A stretch of DNA of 43,180 bases from an uncultured Phycisphaerales bacterium. Lineage in GTDB: Bacteria; Planctomycetota; Phycisphaerae; Phycisphaerales; UBA1924. This document shows positions 9,476 through 38,360 of this stretch, in pieces. Each line of letters opens with the position of its first letter. The first letter of the stretch is position 1. A program made the translations under genes and the position numbers. The stretch lies in the NCBI GenBank assembly GCA_937858155.1, contig CALLYM010000117.1, positions 1-43,180 on the forward strand. Direction: 5' to 3'. The notes beneath the pieces were generated by a model that did no database searches, was not told the DNA's origin, and saw only the letters and a list, made by a program, of their open reading frames with translations.

Positions 9476-10183
9476 CTAGTAATGGCACGCGCCGCAGTTT
9501 TCCGGTGGCTGCTTCTGGAGGACCGTGTCCATCACTTGGCGTGCGTCGGCGCTCATCGCCGCGCCCGCCGCACGCTCCTTGAGGGTGTCCTGCACCCACT
9601 GAAGGTCTGTCACCTTGTCCTTGGGCACGATCGCCGTTGCAGGGTCACGGTGGCAGTCCAGGCAGAAACTCATGGAGAGGGGCTGCGCGTGGTACACAAT
9701 CGGCATCGTGTCGATGCGCCCATGGCACGAGTAGCACGACACTCCAGCGTTGAGGTGCACCTGATGCGGGAAGTTGTGCACGTAGTCCGGCAGCTTGTGC
9801 ACACGGGTCCAAGGAATTGATTCGTCCGCGGCGAACGCGGTGCGGATGAATTCCGTCCGCTCCTTGTGCGTGACGTTGCCCTCGGTCAGCAGCTTCAACT
9901 TGGCGTCGCCGTGGCACCCGTAGCAGGTGGCCACGTTCGGGACGTTCGCCTCGTAGCTTTTCTCTACCTTCGTGTGGCAGTAGCGGCAGTCCATACCCAG
10001 CTTGCCGGCATGGATCTGATGATTAAAACCCCCGCCGGGCTGCGTCGGCATGTAACCCACACGCCAGAACTTCGGCGTCGCGTAGTACCAGAAACCCCCA
10101 ACAGCCCCCGTCGCTGCGAGGAGCCCGCCGACGGCCAGTACCGGCGGCAACTTGTTCATCCACGAAGGGAAGAGCACAGACAA
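9476..10183 (-). CDS. actA: Alternative complex III pentaheme cytochrome c subunit ActA
   Basis: 235 residues with one N-terminal membrane helix (VLAVGGLLAATGAVGGFWYY). Five CxxCH heme sites are visible: CRYCH, CYGCH, CYSCH, CLDCH and a final CGACH three residues from the end. Five hemes is the known number for ActA. GFNHQIHAGKLGMDC and NFPHQVHLNAGVSC supply likely distal histidines. The start is best read as TTG at 10183, with AGGAG 7 nt upstream. GTG 10177 and ATG 10159 are alternatives. It is the first gene of the operon, and actB follows after 83 nt. Confidence 0.93.
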   Translation of the reverse strand: MSVLFPSWMNKLPPVLAVGGLLAATGAVGGFWYYATPKFWRVGYMPTQPGGGFNHQIHAGKLGMDCRYCHTKVEKSYEANVPNVATCYGCHGDAKLKLLTEGNVTHKERTEFIRTAFAADESIPWTRVHKLPDYVHNFPHQVHLNAGVSCYSCHGRIDTMPIVYHAQPLSMSFCLDCHRDPATAIVPKDKVTDLQWVQDTLKERAAGAAMSADARQVMDTVLQKQPPENCGACHY

Positions 10184-33896: not shown

Positions 33897-34532
33897 ATGG
33901 AGCGCAGCGAGCCAACCCCGCCCCCCGCCCCGCGTGTCGGCGTCGATCCGCACTTCTCCACGCTTCTCGCCCGCGCCGCCCAGGGCGAACCCGCTGCCTC
34001 CGCGGAATTGCTGCCGCTCGTCTATGACCACCTCCGCGCCCTCGCACGCGCCAAACTCGCGAAAGAACCTGCCGGTCAGACACTGCAGCCCACGGCACTC
34101 GTCCACGAGGCGTACCTCAGGCTTATCGGGAGCGAAAGGCCCTGGAACGACAAACGCCACTTCTTCGCCGCCGCTGCGCTGGCCATGAGGCGCATCCTGG
34201 TTGACCGCGCCCGCGCCAAGCGTGGGGAAAAACGTGGCGGGGACCTGCGCCGAATCTCGCTGGAGGTGGTGGAAGGAGGAAACGACGGCAACCCCCATCA
34301 GCGTCACCACCCCGACGACAGCTTCGACTGGCTCGCCTTGGAGCACGCCATGGCTGCTTTGGAAGCCCACGATTCTGGTCTCGCGGAGATCGTCCACCTG
34401 AGGTACTTTGCAGGTCTATCCGTGGAGGAAGTGGCAAACGCAACAGGGGTTTCGTCGCGCACCATTAACAGGGACTGGCTGGTCGCCCGTGCCTGGCTCC
34501 TCCGCCGGATGCAGGAAAGTGATACGGCCTGA
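33897..34532 (+). CDS. ECF-like RNA polymerase sigma factor (planctomycete Sigma70-ECF, PF07638 type)
   Basis: 211 residues. Sigma region 2 contains LLPLVYDHLRALARAKLAKE, LQPTALVHEAYLRLIG and HFFAAAALAMRRILVDRARA. Region 4 has IVHLRYFAGLSVEEVANATG and SSRTINRDWLVARAWLLRRM, a helix-turn-helix for -35 recognition. This layout is the planctomycete family usually encoded beside a Ser/Thr kinase, as here (kinase starts 25 nt downstream). No anti-sigma factor is visible, so the kinase may control it. It is divergent from the large exported-protein genes. Start ATG 33897 is preferred; ATG 33843 is in frame. The 125-bp gap before it shows no clear promoter. Confidence 0.9.
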   Translation: MERSEPTPPPAPRVGVDPHFSTLLARAAQGEPAASAELLPLVYDHLRALARAKLAKEPAGQTLQPTALVHEAYLRLIGSERPWNDKRHFFAAAALAMRRILVDRARAKRGEKRGGDLRRISLEVVEGGNDGNPHQRHHPDDSFDWLALEHAMAALEAHDSGLAEIVHLRYFAGLSVEEVANATGVSSRTINRDWLVARAWLLRRMQESDTA

Positions 34533-34557
34533 TACACACCGGCAGGGGCGCGATCCG

Positions 34558-37308
34558 ATGACACCAGGTACGCATTCCAATGCTGACGCGGATCACCAGG
34601 GGTTGTGGCACCGCACGAAAGCCGTCGCCGGCCAAGCGCTGGAACTGCCCGCGCTGGAACGTCACGCGTTCGTCGAAGCAGCCTGCGCACACGACCCTGA
34701 ACTGCTCTCCGAAGTCCGTGCCTTGCTCAAGGCGTCTCTTGATGCGGGTGAAGCGCTGACCGACGCGGGGCTCCCCGCGAGCGCACTCGCTGATGTATTG
34801 GAGACACCGGTCGTCGCGCCGGGGACCATGATCGGCAGATACCGGGTGGCACGCCCCATCGGCGCGGGGGGCATGGGAGCGGTGTTCGAGGCCAACGACA
34901 CAAGCCTCAACCGCAAGGTCGCATTGAAGCTGCTGACGCTCGGCCTCGCCTCCACCGGCGCCCGCAAACGCTTTGAAGGCGAAGCCATGGCCCTGGCCCG
35001 GCTGGACCACCCCTGCCTCGCACGCATCTACGAAGCGGGCGTGCACACCGCAGCCGGGCTGAGCGTGCCCTACTTCGCGATGGCGTTTGTCGAAGACTCC
35101 CGCACACTCGACACGTTCTTCCGCGATACACGCCCGGACGCCCGGACGGCGATGGCACTCTTCGCACGAATCTGCGACGCCGTTCACCACGGCCACCAGA
35201 AGGGCGTGCTCCACCGGGACCTCAAGCCCTCGAACATTCTCATCGACCGTGAAGGCTGCCCGCAGATTGTGGACTTTGGAGTTTCCCGGCTCCTTGATAC
35301 CGGCGGTACGACCCAGTCAACTCGCGCAGGCGAAATCGTCGGCACCCCGGCATACCTCCCGCCAGAGGCATTCGAACAAGGCGCGCAATCGCTCGACACA
35401 CGCGCAGATGTGTACGCCCTGGGCGTTGTCTTATACGAAGTGCTCTGCGGCAGCAATCCCTTTACCGGCCCGACGCTGACACCGGTGCAGATTGGCAAGC
35501 GTGTCTGCTCCAAGCCCCCGCCGCTCCTGGGCTCCTTGCGTGAGGACTGTATGGGCGATGTCGAGACGATCATCGCCAAAGCGATGGCACGTGATCCCCG
35601 CGACCGCTACCCGTCGGTCGAACAGCTGGGGGCGGACCTCCGGCGGGTACTCTCCTATGAGCCCATCCTTGCGCGGCCCGCTCCGGTGCTCCGCCAGGCA
35701 CGCCTGTTCGCACGGCGTAACCGCGTCCTTGTCGCCGCGTGCGGCGCTGTAGCGCTGGCCCTCGTACTTGGTATTGCCGGGCTTGGTGTGGGCTTTGCAC
35801 GCGCGCGCGCGAGCGAACGCCGTGCGCGGGAGGAGGCCGATCGCGCGACGAAGGTTTCCGCATTCATTATGCGTATGTTCAGGTCGGCAAGCCCGTTCCA
35901 CGGGGCCCAGTTCAGGAACCGTGGTCCTCAGGCGCCGAGGCTATTCGACGAGAGCGAAGCCTGGCCAAACGCGGCGATCCCTGGGAGGGCCCCCACGGTC
36001 GGCGACCTCCTGTTCGCCGCTTCCGGCCACCTCGAAGAATCGTTTCCCAACGACCCGGCTCTCCAAGCGGATATGGCGAGCGCTCTCGCGCGGACCGCGA
36101 GTGACATCTCAGACTACAGGATCGGCGTATTTACCAGCAGGGCGGCGTCGCTGCTATCCACGGCTTACGGCCGCGACGACCCGCGCACACTGGCGGCTCG
36201 CCAGGGAACATACTCCTCCGAACTTGTCAACGGCTCTGCCGTCAACATCGCGGACATGGAGCGTGATCTCAACATCATCCGCCACCTCCCGATATCCGAG
36301 AACGAGCTGCTGTTGCAGTGGGCATGGAGCCACTACACCCAGGGCCTGCGCATGCAGAACCGCGGGAAGGAAGCGCTCGACGTCCTGCGCTCACTCCGGG
36401 CTGATATCGGCCAGTCAATGCCCGGCGACTCTCCCACCAAGATCGCGCTCGACCTCGCGATCATCCGCTTGCAGACACCGGAAGGGGATTCGCGCGCTGC
36501 ATTGGACGCTATGCCCGCGCTGCTCGCGCGCGCCCGAGCGCTTCCGGATACCGATTCGCAGTGGGCTGTCCTCTCGGTGCTCTTCGACACCCAGTTCCAC
36601 CAGTCAAACATGCGTGAGTTCGACGCCGCCATGCACACACTGTCACAGGGTGCTTCGCTGTCGTCCCAGCTTTACGGCGGCATGGACCAGGGCACGTACG
36701 AATGGTGGAACAACCTTTACTTTGTCGCGCTCATGACGCAGAACTTCGATATTGCTGAGTATGCGGCTCGCGAGCAACTCCGTGGTGCGGACGCCATGCT
36801 GGGGCCTCACTCCTTTTACACAACAAAGGCGCAGGGACGCCTCGCCCGTTCCCTTCTCTCGCAGCACAAAAACCTGGAGGAGGCGGAGCGCGCCGCGCGA
36901 AGAGCCATCGACGGCGCGCCGGAAATGCTCCCCATCGGCGAGGGCTGGGCGCTCTACCACGAACTCCTATGGGCTTGGTGCATCCGCTTGCAGGGAGACC
37001 CTCAGCGCGCAGATCGCATCATTCGGGACCGCATGGGGAATGAGGTTCGGGCCGGCAGGCCAGTCGCGGTCAACTGGGTCGAGCTCCTCCGCGCCACCGA
37101 ACTCGCCCAGTGCGAAATGGACATGGGCGAACGCGCGGGGGACCTTCCCTCACGCCTCCCGGCGATCGATGCGCTCCTCTCGGATGCGGAGTGCTGGGCG
37201 GAAGAACTCGGGCGGGACTGGCCATCCGTCCACCTTACGGAGGAAGCCCGCCAACGCTATGACATGCTGACCGGACGCACCCAGCCGACGCCTTCGCACT
37301 CTCCCTAA
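34558..37308 (+). CDS. Membrane Ser/Thr protein kinase with TPR-like extracytoplasmic domain
   Basis: 916 residues. An N-terminal helical segment typical of this planctomycete family comes first (ELPALERHAFVEAACAHDPE). The kinase domain (about 95-370) has the glycine loop PIGAGGMGAVFEAND, VALKLL lysine, catalytic HRDLKPSNILID, DFGVSRLL, and GTPAYLPPEAF. One membrane helix lies at about 390-414 (VLVAACGAVALALVLGIAGL). The remaining 500 residues are helical with TPR-like spacing, probably outside the membrane, and may sense a ligand. It pairs with the upstream sigma factor, and together they may couple an envelope signal to transcription, possibly of the adjacent surface proteins. That link is inference. 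Confidence 0.9.
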   Translation: MTPGTHSNADADHQGLWHRTKAVAGQALELPALERHAFVEAACAHDPELLSEVRALLKASLDAGEALTDAGLPASALADVLETPVVAPGTMIGRYRVARPIGAGGMGAVFEANDTSLNRKVALKLLTLGLASTGARKRFEGEAMALARLDHPCLARIYEAGVHTAAGLSVPYFAMAFVEDSRTLDTFFRDTRPDARTAMALFARICDAVHHGHQKGVLHRDLKPSNILIDREGCPQIVDFGVSRLLDTGGTTQSTRAGEIVGTPAYLPPEAFEQGAQSLDTRADVYALGVVLYEVLCGSNPFTGPTLTPVQIGKRVCSKPPPLLGSLREDCMGDVETIIAKAMARDPRDRYPSVEQLGADLRRVLSYEPILARPAPVLRQARLFARRNRVLVAACGAVALALVLGIAGLGVGFARARASERRAREEADRATKVSAFIMRMFRSASPFHGAQFRNRGPQAPRLFDESEAWPNAAIPGRAPTVGDLLFAASGHLEESFPNDPALQADMASALARTASDISDYRIGVFTSRAASLLSTAYGRDDPRTLAARQGTYSSELVNGSAVNIADMERDLNIIRHLPISENELLLQWAWSHYTQGLRMQNRGKEALDVLRSLRADIGQSMPGDSPTKIALDLAIIRLQTPEGDSRAALDAMPALLARARALPDTDSQWAVLSVLFDTQFHQSNMREFDAAMHTLSQGASLSSQLYGGMDQGTYEWWNNLYFVALMTQNFDIAEYAAREQLRGADAMLGPHSFYTTKAQGRLARSLLSQHKNLEEAERAARRAIDGAPEMLPIGEGWALYHELLWAWCIRLQGDPQRADRIIRDRMGNEVRAGRPVAVNWVELLRATELAQCEMDMGERAGDLPSRLPAIDALLSDAECWAEELGRDWPSVHLTEEARQRYDMLTGRTQPTPSHSP

Positions 37309-37316
37309 CCTCCACC

Positions 37317-38360
37317 ATCACGCACGAATCACCGCAATCTAAGCCTCTCCGAGTTGCCATTCTCGGGTTAGGATTCATGGGACGCACCCACGCTGGGGCG
37401 TACACGCGCGCCGCGAGCACGGGGCTGCCGGTTCAAATCATCGGCGTTGCCGACCCCAAGGCCCACGACATCCTCCTCGCTGAACCGTCCACGCTTGGCA
37501 ATATCTCGTCGGGTGCCGTCCCGCTGAGCACAGCCTCGCTGCGCACTTACAAGTCCTCCGAGGAAGCACTTGCCGACCATGACGTGGACGCAGTGTCGAT
37601 CTGCACGTACACCGACAGCCACGCAAGCACGGCGGTACAAGCTCTGGCCGCGGGCAAGCACGTGCTGATAGAGAAGCCCGTGGCTCTCCGCGCACCCGAC
37701 GTGGAGCGTGTGCGCGATGCAGCAACAGGTTCCCCGCATCTGGTCGCGATGCCCGCCATGTGCATGAGATTCTGGCCCGCCTGGGACTGGCTGCGCGACC
37801 GTATCGCTGACCGCTCCTTTGGTACGCTCCGCTCCCTCACGCTCACCCGCCTGGGCGCCGGCCCCACATGGGCAGCGGACTTCTACCGCGATATTTCACG
37901 ATCGGGCGGCGCGATCTTCGATCTCCACGTGCACGACACCGACTTCATCTGCCATTGCCTGGGCCCCCCCAGCCGCGTCAAGACCAGCGGAAGCGCCAAC
38001 CACCTCACCACGCTGTATGAGTACGACTCTTTCCTAGGAGTGCACATCGCGGCGGAAGGCGCCTGGGACCTGCAGCCCGGCGCGGGCTTTCGCATGCGTT
38101 ACTTCGCTCACTTTGAACATGCGAGCGCCGAGTGGGACCTCGCGCATGCACCCAGAATTTCCGTCCACCAAGGCTCCACAACCCGCGCCGTGATACCCGA
38201 CTCTGCCCACCTTTCCACCGGCTACGACGCCGAAGTGCGTCACTTCGTGAACGCCTGCATCGCAGCACGCGAGCAGAGGACGTTCACACTCAGGGCCACG
38301 ATGGAGGACGCGGTGATGGTCGCGCACGTGCTCGATGCAGAACGTGCCCAACTCCGCTAG
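37317..38360 (+). CDS. GFO/IDH/MocA family oxidoreductase with non-canonical start
   Basis: The Rossmann N-terminus reads VAILGLGFMGRTHAGAY, giving the GxGxxG dinucleotide site. The sugar-dehydrogenase dyad region is AGKHVLIEKPVALRAPD, followed by MPAMCMRFWPAW and GGAIFDLHVHDTDFICHCLG. It oxidises or reduces a sugar-like substrate with NAD(P). The first ATG in frame (37377) falls inside the GxGxxG motif. Back to the stop at 37260 there is no ATG, GTG, TTG or CTG. The best candidate is ATC at 37317, 8 nt after the kinase stop, with TAACCT (37306-37311) 5 nt before it, which matches the leaderless pattern of this window. A sequencing error or a shifted start is also possible. I place the start at ATC, giving 347 residues. 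Confidence 0.75.
   Translation: MTHESPQSKPLRVAILGLGFMGRTHAGAYTRAASTGLPVQIIGVADPKAHDILLAEPSTLGNISSGAVPLSTASLRTYKSSEEALADHDVDAVSICTYTDSHASTAVQALAAGKHVLIEKPVALRAPDVERVRDAATGSPHLVAMPAMCMRFWPAWDWLRDRIADRSFGTLRSLTLTRLGAGPTWAADFYRDISRSGGAIFDLHVHDTDFICHCLGPPSRVKTSGSANHLTTLYEYDSFLGVHIAAEGAWDLQPGAGFRMRYFAHFEHASAEWDLAHAPRISVHQGSTTRAVIPDSAHLSTGYDAEVRHFVNACIAAREQRTFTLRATMEDAVMVAHVLDAERAQLR

Follow-up and report, generated by a model that had tools for sequence, protein, structure and literature searches.

A Phycisphaerales dehydrogenase frame reads ATC where homologues and a leaderless layout place the start codon

How can translation of an enzyme begin when its reading frame offers no standard start codon ahead of its first conserved motif? 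This question is raised by an oxidoreductase frame on a contig of an uncultured Phycisphaerales bacterium, the whole of which (43,180 nucleotides; the window) was analysed. In the plus-strand frame that runs to position 38360, direct reading and a scan found no ATG, GTG, TTG or CTG from the stop codon TGA at 37260-37262 to an ATG at 37377. This confirms what an earlier sequence-only reading had reported, namely that no standard start precedes the NAD-binding motif back to the stop at 37260 and that the first in-frame ATG lies inside VAILGLGFMG; the coordinates of this motif are corrected here to 37353-37382. The near-cognate codons found in frame within the gap are ACG 37275, ATC 37317, ACG 37320, AAG 37341 and ATT 37359. 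Across all three forward frames, the only start-like triplets between 37260 and 37360 are ATG 37264, CTG 37267 and TTG 37354, and each of them belongs to the frame of the kinase gene upstream. The features on which our analysis relied are the following.

34408..37308, plus strand: Ser/Thr protein kinase with a long C-terminal part (PF00069, E 1.2e-38; stop codon TAA at 37306-37308)
37306..37311, plus strand: TAACCT, a -10-like hexamer that overlaps the kinase stop codon (the 11-mer TAACCTCCACC scores 9.2 bits)
37317..37319, plus strand: ATC codon, putative initiation position, 5 nt after TAACCT and 12 codons ahead of the motif's first residue
37317..38360, plus strand: reading frame of a Gfo/Idh/MocA-family dehydrogenase (stop codon TAG at 38358-38360; PF01408, E 7.8e-20; PF22725, E 5.6e-9)
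37353..37382, plus strand: VAILGLGFMG in translation, Rossmann-fold NAD-binding motif, whose ninth codon is the first in-frame ATG (37377)

By its sequence, the frame is assigned to the Gfo/Idh/MocA oxidoreductases, since the domains, the EKP motif and the conserved histidine motif are all present. The NAD-binding domain PF01408 exceeds its gathering score (72.2 bits versus a cut-off of 24), the C-terminal family domain PF22725 reaches 36.5 bits versus a cut-off of 27, and the translation carries the motifs IEKP and HVHDTDF. The protein consequently shares with this family the Rossmann domain with GLGFMG, the IEKP and HDTDF motifs and the C-terminal family domain, but differs from it in lacking a canonical start codon. 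Its nearest solved relatives are inositol dehydrogenases (e.g., 4hkt and 5ya8); every NCBIfam equivalog score for the dehydrogenase lay far under its cut-off. Counted from ATC 37317, position 1 of the PF01408 profile aligns to residue 11. The ATG at 37377 would be no substitute for the missing start and was rejected, since translation from it would leave out the first strand together with the greater part of the NAD-binding motif. Of 62 near-invariant residues, 59 are retained (95%; the homologue median is 97%), and a search of the dehydrogenase for further decay, that is, for stops, frameshifts and loss of conserved residues, found none. An enzyme as intact as this implies either that the start was lost very recently (or that a base is wrong), or that the gene is still working. 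The first 80 nt are not predicted to fold into any unusual RNA structure (z 0.83).

The mere length of the start-free stretch is not what sets this gene apart. In 612 closed (stop-to-stop) gene frames taken from 960 kb of stretches, about a quarter of the genome, the first ATG, GTG or TTG comes only after at least about 38 codons in roughly 15% of cases; 38 start-free codons are, by themselves, nothing out of the ordinary in this genome. The missing start is remarkable because a conserved N-terminus lies within the start-free stretch. When the 612 frames were set against the homologue loci and against stretches from two genomes of the same genus, 217 of them had a homologue, and the dehydrogenase was the only one of these 217 genes in which a clearly homologous N-terminus extends upstream of the first canonical start. 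The remaining candidates, as listed, showed low upstream identity or, at first sight, overlapping or wrong frames. An ACG at position 9804 of locus L136 was considered as a second case and dismissed, as a normal ATG follows 9 codons further on. A single clear case among 217 genes fits one accident better than a rule.

Comparison with homologous N-termini, which the sequence-only reading had proposed as a check, was carried out on 119 loci (106 distinct aligned sequences; N-terminus aligned in 113 loci). In the 113 aligned loci the nearest canonical start upstream of the motif is ATG in 78, GTG in 30 and TTG in 5; none is without one. The distance from start to motif is 2-15 codons in nearly all homologues, a range that includes the 12 codons of ATC 37317, and the N-terminus of the dehydrogenase aligns to the homologues through KPLRVAILG, with 10 of 13 residues identical to those of one homologue (L224). 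The comparison thus places the N-terminus near ATC 37317. The best homologue across 163 genomes of the family shares only about 52-53% identity, so that no close relative displays the ancestral codon directly; the non-canonical codon is not conserved, every aligned locus having ATG, GTG or TTG, with the closest only about 52% identical. Several homologues combine a leaderless layout with ATG: TACGCT-6-ATG in L222 (about 50% identical to the dehydrogenase), TATCCT-6-ATG in L064, TAGTGT-6-ATG in L017 and TACGGT-7-ATG in L058. The closest named homologues of the window come from Phycisphaerales/Planctomycetota metagenome assemblies. One genome of the same genus (G003) has an in-frame fusion (L026, 607-2577) in which a Gfo/Idh/MocA dehydrogenase follows a domain that by eye resembles a TIM-barrel sugar isomerase.

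The leaderless layout that the earlier reading ascribed to the window does exist, with strong enrichment. In the 960 kb of genome, TANNNT stands 5 nt before ATG in 38 of 993 candidate ATGs versus about 1.2 expected, the count is likewise raised at spacings of 6 and 7 nt, and a weaker excess is found before GTG (14 of 1171 versus 1.4 expected). Before ATC there is no excess in the same sample (2 of 928 versus 1.1 expected, one of the two being the dehydrogenase itself), and no other ATC with a convincing leaderless layout was found in it. The signature in this planctomycete, a strong one, consists of TANNNT, mostly TACNCT or TACNAT, a C-rich spacer of 5-7 nt and then ATG or GTG; within the window it occurs at the starts 12681, 14595 (minus strand), 19150 and 41696 (minus strand). 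No clear -35 element was seen at a fixed spacing to the leaderless TANNNT sites. A scoring matrix built from the 38 TANNNT-5nt-ATG sites gives TAACCTCCACC, the 11-mer before ATC 37317, a value around the median of these sites, and a score as high is reached by 1e-4 of background positions and by 2 of 669 gene stops (about 0.3%). The dehydrogenase therefore shares with the other leaderless genes of this genome the hexamer, its spacing (a gap of 5 nt, within the usual 5-7) and the C-rich spacer, but it differs from them in its 5' codon, which is ATC rather than ATG or GTG, and in a hexamer that overlaps the upstream stop codon, an overlap absent from all 104 other layout sites. The kinase's TAA stop supplies the first three bases of TAACCT, which partly dictates the 'TA' of the hexamer, and 34 of 669 gene stops form TANNNT unaided; owing to this overlap, the score overstates how safely the hexamer can be read as a promoter. 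Layout and homologous start positions taken together support the earlier proposal that the ATC lying 5 nt after TAACCT sits at the right place for a start, and 37317 is, on both counts, very probably the start position.

What, then, became of the start codon? That it was recently lost to a mutation, or that the draft metagenome assembly carries an erroneous base here, is in our view the probable explanation and likelier than a working AUC. The gene would be a leaderless Gfo/Idh/MocA dehydrogenase with TAACCT as the -10 box of its promoter, and its former start codon, presumably an ATG at 37317-37319, would now read ATC, one base off, through either a point mutation in the strain or a wrong consensus base in a fragmented assembly (3.79 Mb in 296 contigs, 83% complete; the window is contig 117), the remainder of the gene being still intact. 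Should the base prove real, the mRNA would begin at or near the AUC, with transcription starting at 37317, and translation would be poor or absent, so that little enzyme would be expected. As in a pseudogene that arose by start loss, the start is missing where the homologues have one; further decay is not seen, and if this is a pseudogene, only a very recent loss is possible. The dehydrogenase locus occurs once in its own assembly, with no second copy there, and an exact scan of viral contigs for it gave no match. Point changes that destroy a start, and consensus errors in draft metagenomes, are, as a matter of general judgement, commoner than genuine AUC starts outside infC. The oddity is real and well located; its cause is probably ordinary.

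An alternative explanation holds that ATC 37317 is a working start, its AUC pairing with the initiator tRNA either at the very 5' end of a leaderless mRNA or on a slightly longer one. An intact enzyme that looks constrained, and an ATC for which both position and layout are right, speak for it. Precedents exist as well: proven non-canonical starts are known from infC (ATT in E. coli, ATC in Streptomyces) and from Streptomyces sigR, whose GTC is an experimentally proven case outside infC (PMC5472188), infC of same-family relatives appears to start with ATC, ATA or ATT at a conserved position, and, according to a review, leaderless mRNAs led by GUG are efficient in some bacteria, whereas codons other than AUG work far less well in E. 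coli (PMC9031893). With infC and sigR the dehydrogenase shares a rare codon at the start position and the absence of ATG, GTG and TTG ahead of its conserved N-terminus. In those genes, however, the codon has been examined by experiment and forms part of the control by IF3, and in sigR it is accompanied by a strong ribosome-binding site (PMC5472188); the ATC of the dehydrogenase is confined to one genome, is known from sequence alone and has no Shine-Dalgarno sequence upstream, and the orthologues do not conserve it. In E. coli, moreover, changing the 5'-terminal AUG to AUC has served to knock out initiation on leaderless open reading frames (PMC4965119); these constructs match the dehydrogenase both in the codon and in its place on a leaderless message, although they were engineered and the ATC studied here is either natural or an assembly artefact. 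Canonical starts in all homologues tested, the lack of an ATC excess after TANNNT, and an ATG at infC of this very species tell against it too. We consequently regard a working AUC as unlikely; such a start would supply little enzyme but enough, perhaps as an intended means of low expression or an IF3-sensitive switch like those of infC and sigR. The more specific proposition, that AUC initiates a natural leaderless bacterial mRNA and thereby holds a metabolic enzyme at a low level, is more doubtful still. The suggestion of the first reading that AUC truly initiates translation here thus found no support, start loss or a consensus error being the cheaper account. Our preference for that account reflects the absence of such use in the homologues and in the genome sample and the E. 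coli knock-out, set against the intact enzyme and the precedents, together with general judgement.

Two other explanations involve the kinase gene. Its coordinate 34408 is merely the first TTG of the frame, the true start being probably further in; related Ser/Thr kinase genes number about 25-31 per genome in the whole genomes G000 (the window's own) and G003. The kinase and dehydrogenase frames overlap from 37263 to 37308, and the kinase stop lies 8 nt before the ATC. Reinitiation after termination of the kinase, or a -1 ribosomal frameshift, which would join the two frames, could make a start codon of the dehydrogenase's own unnecessary, and the fused dehydrogenase of L026 offers a parallel from the same genus. 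Yet reinitiation would still require a start codon, and none is canonical; the overlap ends in TCT CCC TAA and by eye holds no X XXY YYZ slippery heptamer; and in G003 the gene that comes after the orthologous kinase (50% identity) is a different one, so that kinase and dehydrogenase do not form a conserved unit. We hold this mechanism to be highly unlikely. Rescue by a one-base indel was also examined and rejected: since the kinase frame holds all the nearby start-like codons (ATG 37264, the CTG after it, and TTG 37354), such an indel would only fuse kinase and dehydrogenase and not supply the latter with a start of its own, which largely closes the route by which a frameshift joining the motif to another start might have explained the anomaly away. 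Less probable again is that the start region was scrambled, by rearrangement or misassembly, when the gene landed behind the kinase, so that the true N-terminus lies elsewhere and the ATC and its layout are coincidental. Gene neighbourhoods vary between species, and the junction is therefore not ancestral, as this proposal would have it; but the alignment through KPLRVAILG, with its 10 of 13 residues identical to L224, argues against scrambling, as does the rarity of so good a -10-like 11-mer (about 1e-4 per position, about 0.3% per gene stop).

If the AUC start were true, nature would offer an exception to the generally held rule that leaderless mRNAs must open with a 5' AUG (or GUG), and gene callers restricted to ATG, GTG and TTG would trim the NAD-binding motif from such proteins. 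If the start was lost or miscalled, as is likelier, the event is an ordinary one. The leaderless layout, combined with homology, can pinpoint a missing start codon to a single base.

A minor observation concerns infC itself. In many genera of the family this gene has ATC, ATA or ATT 15-17 codons before the R-V/I-N motif, as for IF3 self-regulation, but ATG stands at the infC start position in three genomes of the genus to which the window belongs (loci compared: L212 of G000, L219 and L208 versus L194, L196, L200, L205, L216 and L217). To judge from these sequences, the window's genus may have lost the control of infC by IF3.
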